From positions 248,001 through 312,000 of the forward strand of contig NZ_JAAZTS010000001.1 of NCBI RefSeq assembly GCF_019239235.1: 64,000 nt of DNA, read 5' to 3'. Source of the stretch: Caecibacteroides pullorum. Lineage in GTDB: Bacteria > Bacteroidota > Bacteroidia > Bacteroidales > Bacteroidaceae. This document shows positions 3,740 through 48,631 of the stretch, piece by piece (positions within the stretch are counted from its first letter, which is position 1; each line of letters begins with the position of its first letter). The notes under the pieces were generated by a model. The model made no database searches, was not told the origin of the DNA, and was given only the letters and a program-made list of their open reading frames with translations. The position numbers were made by a program, and so were the translations under genes.

Positions 3740-3852
3740 AATTTGTAGATTTAGGGCGCGGAAGAAACGTCGGCACGGTGTCGAATAACGTTTTCTTCTT
3801 TTGCGAATGTATCACAAATGTACTTACTTTGCAGACAAAAACAAATGAAAAG

Positions 3853-4344
3853 ATGATAAAAATAGGTTTGTTATCTGATACACACGGCTATTGGGACGAG
3901 AAATACCTGCAATATTTCGAACCGTGCGATGAAATCTGGCATGCGGGCGACATCGGTTCACTCGAAGTGGCCGAACGTTTGGCTGCTTTCCGTCCCTTTC
4001 GGGCGGTGTATGGCAACATTGACGGTCAGGATATCCGCCGGCTCTATCCGCAGACTCTCCGTTTTCGGATAGAAGGAGCCGAAGTGCTGATGAAACACAT
4101 TGGCGGCTATCCCGGCAAGTACGATCCTTCGATTGCTGGTAGCATTCTGACGCGTCCCCCAAAGCTGTTTATCAGCGGACATTCGCACATCCTGAAGGTG
4201 AAGTATGACAAAACGCTCGATCTGCTCCACATCAATCCCGGTGCGGCAGGCAAGTATGGTTTCCACAAAGTGCGTACGTTGGTGCGCTTTGTTATCGAGG
4301 ACGGTGTTTTCAAGGATCTGGAAGTTGTGGAACTGGCCGGATAA
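3853..4344 (+). CDS. YfcE/MJ0936-type metallophosphoesterase
   Basis: A 163-residue calcineurin-like phosphoesterase. All metal-ligand motifs are visible: SDTHG (Asp9, His11), HAGDIG (Asp33), YGNID (Asn55), SGHSH (His110, His112) and INPGA (Asn128). The family binds two divalent metals and hydrolyses phosphodiesters; small members act on cyclic nucleotides or model substrates, and the true substrate here is unknown. The open frame extends upstream to 3778, but the start at 3853 is chosen because the conserved MIKIGLLSDTHG opening begins there. Short degenerate repeats start around its stop codon, and a small RNA gene on the opposite strand ends about 130 bases downstream. Confidence 0.9.
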   Translation: MIKIGLLSDTHGYWDEKYLQYFEPCDEIWHAGDIGSLEVAERLAAFRPFRAVYGNIDGQDIRRLYPQTLRFRIEGAEVLMKHIGGYPGKYDPSIAGSILTRPPKLFISGHSHILKVKYDKTLDLLHINPGAAGKYGFHKVRTLVRFVIEDGVFKDLEVVELAG

Positions 4345-4422: not shown

Positions 4423-4474
4423 CCCGGTTTCTCAGGAAGAGGCTAAGGCTGTCGGGGTGGCCGCTTATGGGCAT

Positions 4475-4537
4475 AAAAAAAGGGCTCCGCTGAGCCCAAC
4501 CTTTGTTAACCTTAAATCTAATACTATGAAAAACACA
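4475..4537 (-). ncRNA. Small RNA, copy 1 of a two-copy family (about 60 nt)
   Basis: On the minus strand a TTTG box (4571-4568), a 19-base spacer and TACCTTTG (4548-4541) form an excellent Bacteroidetes promoter. Transcription should start near 4537 and stop at a hairpin with stem GGGCTC/GAGCCC (4497-4482) followed by seven T (4481-4475). No convincing reading frame lies inside. A second copy at 46810-46886 on the plus strand matches from the -7 box through the terminator and a further ATG with a single mismatch, including the GATTTAAGGTTAACAAAGG core. The flanks differ. From memory, paralogous small RNA families (for example FopS) are reported in Bacteroides; membership here is untested. Confidence 0.8.
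4482..4497 (-). terminator. Intrinsic terminator of small RNA copy 1
   Basis: A six-pair G/C stem (GGGCTC with GAGCCC) with a four-base loop is followed on the minus strand by seven T residues at 4481-4475. Confidence 0.85.
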
Positions 4538-4540
4538 TTG

Positions 4541-4571
4541 CAAAGGTACGGGTTTTCTGGAAATCTACAAA
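4541..4571 (-). promoter_or_regulatory. Promoter of small RNA copy 1
   Basis: A -33 TTTG box and a -7 TACCTTTG box are separated by exactly 19 bases, matching the primary sigma factor consensus known for Bacteroides. The same boxes and the same spacing stand before copy 2, while the spacer sequence between them differs completely. Confidence 0.82.
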
Positions 4572-4662
4572 TAATGCAAGAAAAAAGGTGTGTTTTATAA
4601 CATGCTTTATCATTTTTGCGGACTTCATTAACAATTTGATGAGGGAAAATTAGGCTGAAAAG

Positions 4663-5565
4663 TCAGGAGGCCAGTGCCGCGCAGAGCAGCAGTCCCATGA
4701 ACAGCATGTTGCGTGAGGTCTCGCCCAATATGCGGTTCAGTTCTTTGCCTTCCTTAATTTCTATCATCTTACGCCACGTCAGGGTGTGCAGGTAGAGGTA
4801 GATGCACGGTGCCCAGATAAATTCCGGCCACGTGAGCCGTCCGGTAAAGACCAGGCCGGCACAAATGGCGACGGCTGCCAGTCCCAGTCCTAGGTACATA
4901 CCTGCTCCGAACCGTTCTCCGTACCTCACGACCAATGTCTGTTTCCCGCTGATCCGGTCCTGTTCGCGGTCGCGGTAGTTGTTCACCATCAGCAATGTGT
5001 CGATGACCAGTCCCGATACGAGCGACAGCAGGCATACGTCCCAGTTCACTTGCCCTGCCTGTACGTAGTAGGTTCCGCCTACGGGCACGAAGCCGAAGAA
5101 CACCAGTACCAGTACGTCGCCCCAGCCTTTGTAGGAGAGCACCGTGGTGTAGAGAAACGCAAACAGCAAGCACAGTATGCCCAGCAGCACCAGTTCCCAT
5201 CCGCCGTGCGGCAGATTTCCCCAGGCGAAGTACAATACGCCGAGTCCGCATGCACAAGCCAGTGCCAGCACGACACCGATGCCGATGGTCATGGCATACG
5301 GTGTAATCCATCCCTCGGCACAAGCCCTTTGGGGGCCAAGGCGGTCACTGCGGTCGCTGCCTTTCCGAAAGTCGAACAGGTCGTTGATAAAGTTGGCTGC
5401 CACCTGCATCAGGCAGGCGAACAGCAGGCATAGCACCGCTTCCTCTGTCTGGAATTGCCGGTCGGCAAAGGCCAGTGCACTGCCCAATATCACGGGGATA
5501 AGGGCGGCCGTCAGCGTCTTGGGGCGGGCGGCGAGGAGCCAGGCTTGGGGGGAGTTGGGGTGCAT
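4663..5565 (-). CDS. menA: 1,4-dihydroxy-2-naphthoate polyprenyltransferase
   Basis: A 300-residue UbiA-superfamily membrane protein. It opens with SPQAWLLAARPKTLTAALIP, typical of MenA, and has the first prenyl-diphosphate/Mg2+ motif NDLFDFRKGSD at residues 61-71 and the second, NNYRDREQD, in the C-terminal half; about eight or nine hydrophobic helices are visible. MenA attaches the polyprenyl tail to dihydroxynaphthoate in menaquinone synthesis, at the inner membrane. The frame is open upstream to 5637, but the Met at 5565 fits family starts. Its start lies only 8 bases below the stop of the upstream DUF4493 lipoprotein gene, so it may be co-transcribed with an unrelated surface operon. No other men genes are in the window. 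Confidence 0.93.
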   Translation of the reverse strand: MHPNSPQAWLLAARPKTLTAALIPVILGSALAFADRQFQTEEAVLCLLFACLMQVAANFINDLFDFRKGSDRSDRLGPQRACAEGWITPYAMTIGIGVVLALACACGLGVLYFAWGNLPHGGWELVLLGILCLLFAFLYTTVLSYKGWGDVLVLVFFGFVPVGGTYYVQAGQVNWDVCLLSLVSGLVIDTLLMVNNYRDREQDRISGKQTLVVRYGERFGAGMYLGLGLAAVAICAGLVFTGRLTWPEFIWAPCIYLYLHTLTWRKMIEIKEGKELNRILGETSRNMLFMGLLLCAALAS

Positions 5566-5573
5566 AGAGACTG

Positions 5574-6275
5574 TTATGGATTTACGGTTGTTTTGAGTTG
5601 AGTGGGCGAAGCCAGGGAATAGTTGATGACGTAGCAATGTCCCGGTTCTACCTTTTCTCCTTCCACATTTCCATAGGTCTTCTTTTCTGTTGTGAAGGTT
5701 TCGTTATCTGCATTCGTTGCAGTCAGCGTGTAGGTAAAGGTCATGTATTCGGCATAGTCCATGTAAACAGTTTCTCCGGGTTGAAGGACTGTTACAGTTT
5801 GTTCATTTGTCGTATAGAACGAAAGTTCAACGTCATTAAACAATCCTTGAAGCTCGTCGGACAGTGTTGCCAGGCTGATGCCGACATTGACCATCGGTAC
5901 AGATATGGTAGGATAAGTCACTTTTTCCGCTTGGATGGTGAAAGTCGTTTCCATGTAATATTGCGGAGTATTGGCTGTCTTGTTCTTATAAGCGTCGTTA
6001 TATGCCTTTAGGGTATATTCGCCTGCTTCCAGTTCGATTTTTTCTTGTGGAAACTGTCCAGGTTCATAACTTTTTATCGGTTCTGTTTCTGAAAGAATTT
6101 CTATATATAAGTCTGTGTCCACAGCACGGGTTTGCACGCTTTCTATGGTCGGCGATACAAGGGATAAATTCGTCAATTGAAGGTATCCTTTTTTTTCTTG
6201 TTCCGACAGGATATCTTCCTGCTGGCAGCTGATGAGCAGGAAGATGCTAAGTAAAGTATAGAGTGTCTGTTTCAT
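5574..6275 (-). CDS. DUF4493-like lipoprotein
   Basis: A 233-residue lipoprotein, last surface gene of the run starting at 15015. The signal peptide ends in lipobox LISC, and the following QQEDILSEQE is acidic, as in Bacteroidetes lipoproteins exported to the cell surface. The body matches DUF4493 in layout: a first strand (GYLQLTNLSLV), a TRAVDTDLYIEI segment, an ELEAGEYTLKAYN motif, then NVGISLATLSDELQGLFNDVELSF. Unlike its relatives upstream it stops after this domain, so it may be a stand-alone unit. The function of DUF4493 is unknown; the strand pattern and LPxGxYTxxA motif recall fimbrillin-type folds (inference). Confidence 0.75.
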   Translation of the reverse strand: MKQTLYTLLSIFLLISCQQEDILSEQEKKGYLQLTNLSLVSPTIESVQTRAVDTDLYIEILSETEPIKSYEPGQFPQEKIELEAGEYTLKAYNDAYKNKTANTPQYYMETTFTIQAEKVTYPTISVPMVNVGISLATLSDELQGLFNDVELSFYTTNEQTVTVLQPGETVYMDYAEYMTFTYTLTATNADNETFTTEKKTYGNVEGEKVEPGHCYVINYSLASPTQLKTTVNP

Positions 6276-46537: not shown

Positions 46538-46809
46538 AAACTGTGGCGTGCGAGGCTATACTTGCACCCTTTCTGACGAAGCACTGCGTCAGCCTTTCAG
46601 AAAGTGCTTCCTGAGGGTCTCATGCAGTGCTTTGTGAGGAGGTGAGGAAGCACTGTGTCACGCCTTCATGAAGCACTGTGTGAGGACGTCTGCTGGTGGA
46701 ATGTCCCCCTGCGACGCTTTTTTTTGTTTAATAAGTCCGCAGATTTGCTAAAACATGTTATTAAACATGCTTTTTTAGTTGGATTATTTGCAAGTTGCTG
46801 AAAAGTACG
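46538..46809. other. Gene-free interval with GAAGCACTG repeats
   Basis: GAAGCACTG or its complement occurs at about 46578, 46602, 46625, 46648 and 46681 in both orientations, with spacing of 20-33 bp, less regular than in sister arrays. The rest is A/T-rich, with the -33 TTTG (46787-46790) of small RNA copy 2 at the end. No gene is seen. Confidence 0.75.
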
Positions 46810-46817
46810 TACCTTTG
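46787..46817 (+). promoter_or_regulatory. Promoter of small RNA copy 2
   Basis: TTTG (46787-46790), a 19-base spacer and TACCTTTG (46810-46817). The layout is identical to copy 1. Confidence 0.82.
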
Positions 46818-46820
46818 CAG

Positions 46821-46883
46821 TGTGTTTTTCATAGTATTAGATTTAAGGTTAACAAAGGTTGGGCTCAGCGGAGCCCTTTTTTT
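46821..46883 (+). ncRNA. Small RNA, copy 2 of a two-copy family (about 60 nt)
   Basis: Transcription from the 46787-46817 promoter should start near 46821 and end at the hairpin GGGCTC/GAGCCC (46861-46876) plus seven T (46877-46883). The match to copy 1 covers 77 bases (46810-46886 against 4548-4472) with one A/G difference near the 5' end. The conserved interior includes TTAGATTTAAGGTTAACAAA, which may be single-stranded seed sequence. It lies 25 bases from the stop of the convergent YihY gene. Confidence 0.8.
46861..46883 (+). terminator. Intrinsic terminator of small RNA copy 2
   Basis: A six-pair G/C stem with a four-base loop followed by seven T. Confidence 0.85.
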
Positions 46884-46907
46884 ATGTCCGTACCTCTCGT
46901 GTCGGGA

Positions 46908-48253: not shown

Positions 48254-48631
48254 AAAAGCAGTTGGCCTGTAAGCCGGGTTCTGTGCCTTGTCCGAGGGGG
48301 ACAAGGTGTCTGCCATTTATCTGAGCCGTATGTCACCATACGCGCTTTAGCGGTCTACCCTCCGGCATCGAGCGAGCAACTCTCCTTGCGCCGGTTTACA
48401 TGACCTTACAACTCCCAAGACGCACAGCCCTTGTGTCGCCACAAGACTGGTGGGCTCTTACCCCGCCTTCTCACCCTTACCCTCCTTCCGAGAGAAGAAG
48501 GGCGGTTGTTTTCTTCTGCGTTACTCTACCCTCGCGGACAGCTTTCTGTTAGGAAGTGGGACGCTCTGTGTTGCCCGGACTTTCCTCATGCACACCCAAA
48601 GTGCAGGCGGCAGACCGGCCAACTGCTTTAT
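48254..48631 (-). ncRNA. rnpB: RNase P RNA
   Basis: On the minus strand the sequence begins AAGCAGTTGGCCGGTCTGCC and includes GAGGAAAGTCCGGGC, the universal bacterial RNase P P4/J3-4 signature, and ends with ACAGAACCCGGCTTACAGGCC. The terminal AGTTGGCC/GGCCAACT pairing forms helix P1. The length of about 378 nt fits the ancestral type A. A TACCTTTG box (48644-48637) precedes the 5' end by about 5 bases, and T-runs follow the 3' end. The RNA processes tRNA 5' ends. Confidence 0.96.

Follow-up and report, generated by a model that had tools for sequence, protein, structure and literature searches.

Two FopS small RNA genes of Caecibacteroides pullorum and a shared upstream element that resembles a Crp-type site

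A stretch of 64,000 nucleotides from one Caecibacteroides pullorum contig (the window) carries, on its minus strand, a feature that a preliminary description took for a stand-alone small RNA (sRNA) gene nearly identical to a distant copy on the other strand. Which RNA is it, why are the two copies so alike, and what controls them? Here, both copies are identified as FopS genes. In Bacteroides thetaiotaomicron, the 14 FopS copies are RbpB-associated repressors of SusC-type transporter mRNAs; a common 5' seed (the published R1' seed, in the 5' part of the RNA) blocks SusC translation, the RNA-binding protein RbpB counteracts the block, and FopS levels rise with bile salts (PMC11697453). The window's sRNA is an unremarkable member of this published family; the interest lies in its promoter, where a shared and apparently new site ahead of FopS copies resembles a Crp-type site.

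Gene structure and family identity

The first copy (4472..4536, minus strand; 65 nt including the terminator tail) is flanked by a metallophosphoesterase gene (3778-4344, plus strand) and a UbiA/MenA-like gene (4663-5637, minus strand), whose ends converge on it. On the minus strand from 4571 to 4472, a -33 box TTTG (4571-4568) is followed after 19 bases by the -7 box TACCTTTG (4548-4541) and, four bases later, by the RNA, which contains an invariant 5' seed region (28-mer TTTTTCATRGTATTAGATTTAAGGTTAA, 4506..4533, found exactly in Bacteroidales contigs) and a G/C hairpin, GGGCTC-AGCG-GAGCCC (4497-4482), with seven T after it. The promoter and the intrinsic terminator are as first described. 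The second copy (46822..46886, plus strand) specifies an identical RNA in the same layout (46787-46886), with TTTG at 46787..46790 and TACCTTTG at 46810..46817.

Nothing convincing as an open reading frame was found in the RNA (4472-4536), in keeping with the preliminary description: the sole ATG is its last three bases, a GTG at position 1 begins a frame that stays open through the hairpin and has no leader, and the single listed minus-strand frame overlapping FopS starts upstream of the RNA. The predicted fold consisted of the hairpin and a weak 5' helix, and the whole RNA was not more stable than its shuffles (predicted folding, z -0.97), as expected where the 5' half of an sRNA is open.

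Both copies scored 71.6 bits against the Rfam covariance model of FopS (RF04319; gathering cut-off, 56 bits), and membership of GibS (RF04182) was ruled out (both copies 40.1 bits; cut-off, 115). They also have the FopS traits of a seed with only a weak predicted 5' helix, a terminator as main hairpin, multicopy paralogues, and, by inspection, a sigma-ABfr promoter (TTTG-N19-TACCTTTG). The minus-strand feature at 4472-4536 is a real, complete FopS sRNA gene; it stands alone, as proposed, and belongs to the family that the preliminary description had offered for comparison. As that family is already published, the gene is a further member of it, and the length of the match together with the Rfam hit means that the likeness of the two copies is not due to chance.

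The genome (3.61 Mb, 60 contigs) held 11 FopS matches, nine of them above the cut-off; of the other two, one is a GibS-like gene on contig C18. All 41 Bacteroides genomes sampled, this one counted, had matches above the cut-off. In this genome, a 5.4-kb stretch of contig C10 carries four of the nine genes on the same strand, with unrelated genes between them (G000:C10:20501-25894; L354), and other Bacteroides carry three tandem copies 244 bp apart (L355) or clusters adjoining cydAB (L356, L357). FopS conservation has been described as within Bacteroidaceae (PMC11697453); among the matches listed, the 28-mer also occurred in Bacteroidales families beyond it (L152-L269). About 1.4 kb from the second copy, the window encodes a bacterial class A RNase P RNA (48254-48626, minus strand).

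Similarity between the two copies

The reported single mismatch in 77 bases was recovered (4472-4548 against 46810-46886), and the 65-nt RNA was identical at 65/65 positions between 4472-4536 (minus) and 46822-46886 (plus). The downstream boundary had been correctly placed near the terminator, with 10/35 matches at +66..+100. The preliminary description had further placed the onset of conservation exactly at the -7 box, with differing flanks, which was not borne out: the copies matched at 11/12 positions at -12..-1, 14/24 at -36..-13, 12/16 at -52..-37, 19/24 at -76..-53, and still 16/24 at -100..-77, so that similarity extends to about -100; 18/80 positions matched at -180..-101. Neither the downstream sequence nor that beyond about -100 matches, so the block does not belong to any larger repeat.

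This near-identity had been ascribed to selection on the RNA rather than to a recent block duplication. Selection stands, as the seed is shared exactly; the exclusion of recent duplication does not, as copying acts too. The exact 28-mer was found in at least 118 stretches from records titled Bacteroides, Prevotella, Muribaculaceae, Dysgonomonas, Barnesiella, and other Bacteroidales, and the seed is, judged by this spread, under strong constraint. Short-class terminator stems were identical in 87/111 within-genome pairs versus 273/1374 between-genome pairs; on this comparison, the stems are genome-specific dialects. The stem sequence can vary freely: among the longer-stem dialects, two-sided changes were seen in 5/7 pairs, with 35/35 cells paired in five chosen sequences (the count used five of eight, two shorter-stem and one long-class sequence being dropped).

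The 4472 copy lies within about 310 bp that are missing at the matching place from the nearest relative examined (G007), in which both neighbours are kept and the MenA-like protein is 89% identical; the alignment blocks are 17 bp apart in G007 versus 327 bp, FopS included, in this genome. Inspection of the insert by eye revealed neither a transposase nor inverted repeats nor a target duplication. Of 20 MenA loci inspected among 30 fetched, one being this genome's, the 19 others had no FopS in the stretch retrieved; some of these stretches end at contig ends, and a clean empty site was offered by G007 only. The 46822 copy, with identical RNA, is present in G007, which alone had it at the same place among 12 other nitroreductase loci inspected (of 30 fetched). 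On the simplest reading of these loci, the 4472 copy was gained recently by within-genome copying; loss in G007 is a possible alternative. Gene conversion at a fixed locus was considered at cydB, beside which FopS was found only in G003 and G026 (30 loci, 38 genomes with a match of 41 searched), and as these two copies are of the same dialect, conversion and recent re-duplication are inseparable in them. The positional turnover of FopS favours duplication and loss. Seed conservation and recent within-genome copying thus appear both to act in keeping the pair so alike.

A conserved element upstream of FopS

The upstream similarity includes a conserved element at -76..-53 (first copy, 4589..4612, minus strand; second copy, 46746..46769, plus strand). 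The genome was searched with the pattern TAAAACATGTTATAAAACA, mismatches being allowed stepwise and the reversed pattern serving as control. With up to two mismatches, all six sites started at -73 of FopS genes; a third mismatch added five sites, four of them away from FopS and one belonging to a FopS gene, while five were obtained with the control. For a wider view, 98 distinct FopS upstream regions (promoter set 1) were drawn from part of the listed matches in 30 of the 41 genomes, taking RNAs with at most three substitutions in their first 27 bases, and a 75% identity filter reduced them to 74, of which 61 were CATAG-type and 13 CATGG-type by a motif in the RNA. Information in the 61 CATAG promoters averaged 0.67 bits per position at -78..-54 versus 0.047 at -180..-121.

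The element was compared with the predicted site of the Crp-family protein BT4338 (Cur), wwwTATGTTnTAnAACATAwww (PMC3878776); once such a site (22 bp) had been deleted from the promoter of fusA2, BT4338 no longer bound there, and the protein is capable of repression too (PMC6989115). Promoters were scored against the 14-base Cur consensus, with 11/14 or better taken as Cur-like and dinucleotide shuffles as control. The palindrome, TATGTTnTAnAACATA, is imperfect in the window, at 12/14 in the first copy (CATGTTATAAAACACA, 4604-4589, minus strand) and 11/14 in the second (CATGTTATTAAACATG, 46754-46769, plus strand), both centred at -60.5 (consensus from PMC3878776 and PMC6989115). Across set 1, 32/61 CATAG promoters had a Cur-like site (3.2% of shuffles), centred at -60.5 in 30 of the 32, and 29/61 scored below 11/14; 9/13 CATGG promoters reached 13-14/14, with centres at -27.5 or -28.5 (at least 11 in 3.5% of shuffles). 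As a control with real sequence, 5/99 other upstream regions of this genome reached 11/14.

Named contigs among the matches listed supplied a second set (118 non-redundant promoters, overlapping set 1 in part), which had Cur-like sites in 15/59 CATAG and 35/59 CATGG promoters (shuffles, 4-5%), 11 of the former being centred at -60.5 and 21 of the latter at -27.5 or -28.5. When this set was split by lineage according to the records' own titles, some MAG names being doubtful, Cur-like sites were found among the matches listed in 15/27 Bacteroides/Mediterranea/Phocaeicola promoters, none of which (0/27) had the box TTGATnnnnATCAA, and in 1/32 of those titled Prevotella, Prevotellaceae, or Segatella, of which 22/32 had TTGATnnnnATCAA at 9/10 or better, 15 centred at -79.5. 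The box TTGATnnnnATCAA is an FNR-type palindrome (example Prevotella-titled loci, L182, L199, L244, and L255).

Two of the nine copies above the cut-off in this genome (L001 and L009) scored at most 9/14. L009 (G000:C13:31025) belongs with L241, L247, and L252 to a third promoter/5'-end class, which has the RNA region TGATTTTTTTCATAG and no -73 element. A divergent FopS-like gene, L010 (G000:C11:52653; 53.3 bits, below the cut-off), has GTTTTTTTCATAGAGATTTAGATTTAAGG, and its Cur-like site, at 11/14, has its centre at -35.5.

Beyond the palindrome, TTAAA is conserved at about -75..-71, outside the Cur consensus, and recurs in CATGG promoters that have their Cur-like site at a different position; a different regulator, or a further one, may therefore be involved. 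In this genome, ATGTTnTATAACAT with one mismatch gave 25 strand-hits versus 11 for the reversed control and was mostly uninterpretable. TATGTTnTATAACATA gave 68 strand-hits in the 41 genomes versus five reversed, and 9 of 30 inspected loci were FopS promoters; it, or in this genome its one-mismatch forms, also precedes a small-protein gene (L430, L434, L454, L455, L114), a secreted protein of about 117 aa (L446, L129), a dipeptidase gene (L447, L453, L128), and transcripts that have GCAGTTGGGAAACTGC close to where they should begin (L448, L449, L451, L456). This last group may be another conserved RNA.

A candidate Cur orthologue was sought with the cNMP_binding profile, which had six matches in this genome, five above the cut-off. 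The strongest, a 233-aa protein with cNMP_binding and HTH_Crp_2 domains, is a putative Cur orthologue; its best match among solved structures was 2gau, named as a Crp/Fnr family regulator, NCBIfam returned Crp/Fnr models only, all below cut-off, and an 11/14 Cur-like site lies ahead of its start codon. A literature search on BT4339, a neighbour-gene route to the orthologue, found nothing.

Target pairing and viral copies

Genes, controls, and shuffles were handled alike in a test of predicted pairing. Start regions of SusC genes paired with the FopS 5' end at a mean z of -1.57 (n = 29) versus -0.64 for window ORFs (n = 46; one-sided p = 0.0017), and z fell below -2 in 31% of SusC genes versus 20% of controls, while some window ORFs paired as well as the best SusC genes; the predicted SusC-start pairing excess in this genome is modest. 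The idea that FopS arose recently by antisense copying of a single mRNA start was rejected: the complement TTAACCTTAAATCTAATACTATGAAAAA, with up to three mismatches, had eight sites in this genome, all eight inside FopS/GibS genes.

Exact copies of the 28-mer were also found in phage-like contigs (L270, L274, L275, L280, L282-L286, L288, L289, L293), PQ571285.1 (L464) is listed with the FopS-bearing phage-like sequences, and phage BX-TP2 has a FopS-like stretch as well. The phage-like 28-mer copies are without the Bacteroides FopS promoter, and several stand right after a reading frame, with a hairpin next. ARAGORN did not bear out a tRNA-like sequence suspected ahead of two of the viral copies. 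These copies are possibly phage-made FopS mimics that would act on host transporters or on RbpB.

Proposed regulation and its alternatives

In the proposed circuit, a sigma-ABfr-type promoter would give an RNA of about 65 nt from each FopS copy, and the copies would form a dosage set. The largely unpaired 5' half would be complementary to start-codon regions of SusC-like and related mRNAs, and pairing there would block translation, RbpB opposing, as published for B. thetaiotaomicron (PMC11697453). A Crp/Fnr-type regulator would act on the near-palindrome, at -60.5 in CATAG-type and near -28 in CATGG-type promoters. A site at -60.5 has class I geometry, the usual place of an activator; the site at about -28 lies between the promoter boxes, so that repression is equally possible there. 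Cur would turn on carbohydrate genes and raise FopS, keeping SusC translation low unless the specific inducer is present, a dual action that would make an incoherent feed-forward loop. We think it probable that FopS genes are autonomous and that most copies are under Crp/Fnr-family control, in Bacteroides most likely that of Cur/BT4338, whose direct role we infer from the likeness of the site. The broader proposal, that FopS genes are direct Crp/Fnr-family regulon members throughout Bacteroidales, with boxes of Cur type (at -60.5 or about -28) in Bacteroides and several further lineages, FNR-type boxes at about -79.5 in Prevotellaceae, and an incoherent feed-forward loop, seems to us evenly balanced.

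The position of the 4472 copy, between the convergent ends of the metallophosphoesterase and UbiA/MenA-like genes, might suggest a transcript antisense to one of these neighbours or derived from its 3' UTR. This is scarcely credible for a feature equipped with separate promoter boxes and an upstream element and free of overlap with both flanking genes. The copies might instead be a degenerate repeat, mobile remnants that phages or recombination have distributed, any single locus being of little function; the 28-mer does occur in 24 viral stretches, the 4472 copy does sit in an insert missing from G007, and four copies do cluster in 5.4 kb on C10. We nevertheless hold this very improbable, because both window copies retain complete promoter boxes, seed, and terminator, which are seen again in other inspected copies, the terminator stems covary, the insert bears no mark of a mobile element that could be seen by eye (transposase, inverted repeat, target duplication), and FopS function has been demonstrated experimentally in B. 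thetaiotaomicron (PMC11697453).

More weight attaches to a constitutive sigma-ABfr promoter whose upstream element serves another regulator, for example a bile-responsive one, or is an AT-rich aid to RNA polymerase, with an incidental likeness to the Cur site. Bile is the published FopS inducer (PMC11697453), nearly half of the CATAG promoters fall below 11/14, and TTAAA extends past the Cur consensus and is common to CATGG promoters with their palindrome near -28. Yet the Cur-like matches cluster exactly (30/32 at -60.5), 9/13 CATGG promoters have near-perfect palindromes, and an AT-rich element predicts neither a palindrome nor a second fixed place. The different Crp/Fnr-type box TTGATnnnnATCAA in 22/32 Prevotella/Prevotellaceae/Segatella promoters, 15 at -79.5 among the matches listed, speaks in the same direction, and on balance we judge this explanation unlikely.

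Crp/Fnr-family control of FopS is suggested by the conserved sites together with published observations on sRNAs: another sRNA, MasB, is reported to be activated by Cur (PMC10994844), and some sRNAs induced by carbon limitation (BTnc140, BTnc195, BTnc364) lie near BT4338 sites (PMC10294740). The FopS paper suspects an "unknown transcriptional regulator," and "Cur," "Crp," "BT4338," and "starvation" are absent as whole words from its text (PMC11697453). The promoter-motif search in B. thetaiotaomicron spanned only -50 to +1 (PMC7366714), which leaves the -73 element outside its range. The parts of PMC10861873 and PMC12596196 consulted held nothing on FopS transcription, PMC12632263 contained none of the terms sought, and the literature searched, mostly open full texts without figures or supplementary tables, nowhere described control of FopS by Cur.

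A genuine Crp-type site would make one circuit of the transcriptional control of carbohydrate genes by Cur and the post-transcriptional control of transporters by FopS and RbpB. Should the regulon reading be true, a multicopy brake driven by the master sugar regulator would act on the transporters of the very systems that this regulator licenses.

Comparison with known systems

CyaR of Escherichia coli is a Crp-activated, Hfq-dependent sRNA that represses outer-membrane protein mRNAs; its likeness to FopS, if the Cur reading holds, is in mode of action. MasB of B. thetaiotaomicron (PMC10994844), likened here by its description, is likewise an sRNA, reported as Cur-activated and RbpB-associated, but is a single gene with another target. 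GibS (RF04182; PMC7366714) has its first 20 or so nt (the R1 seed) in common with FopS, whereas its model spans 142 positions and the eight GibS-like genes inspected were without the -73 element. The closest counterpart is FopS itself (RF04319; Ruttiger et al. 2025, PMC11697453), which the window copies resemble in score, invariant seed, single hairpin terminator, multicopy occurrence, and sigma-ABfr promoter; they differ in coming from another genome, in terminator stems that are genome-specific here, and in the upstream Crp-type-like element, which goes unmentioned in the main-text parts of that paper examined.
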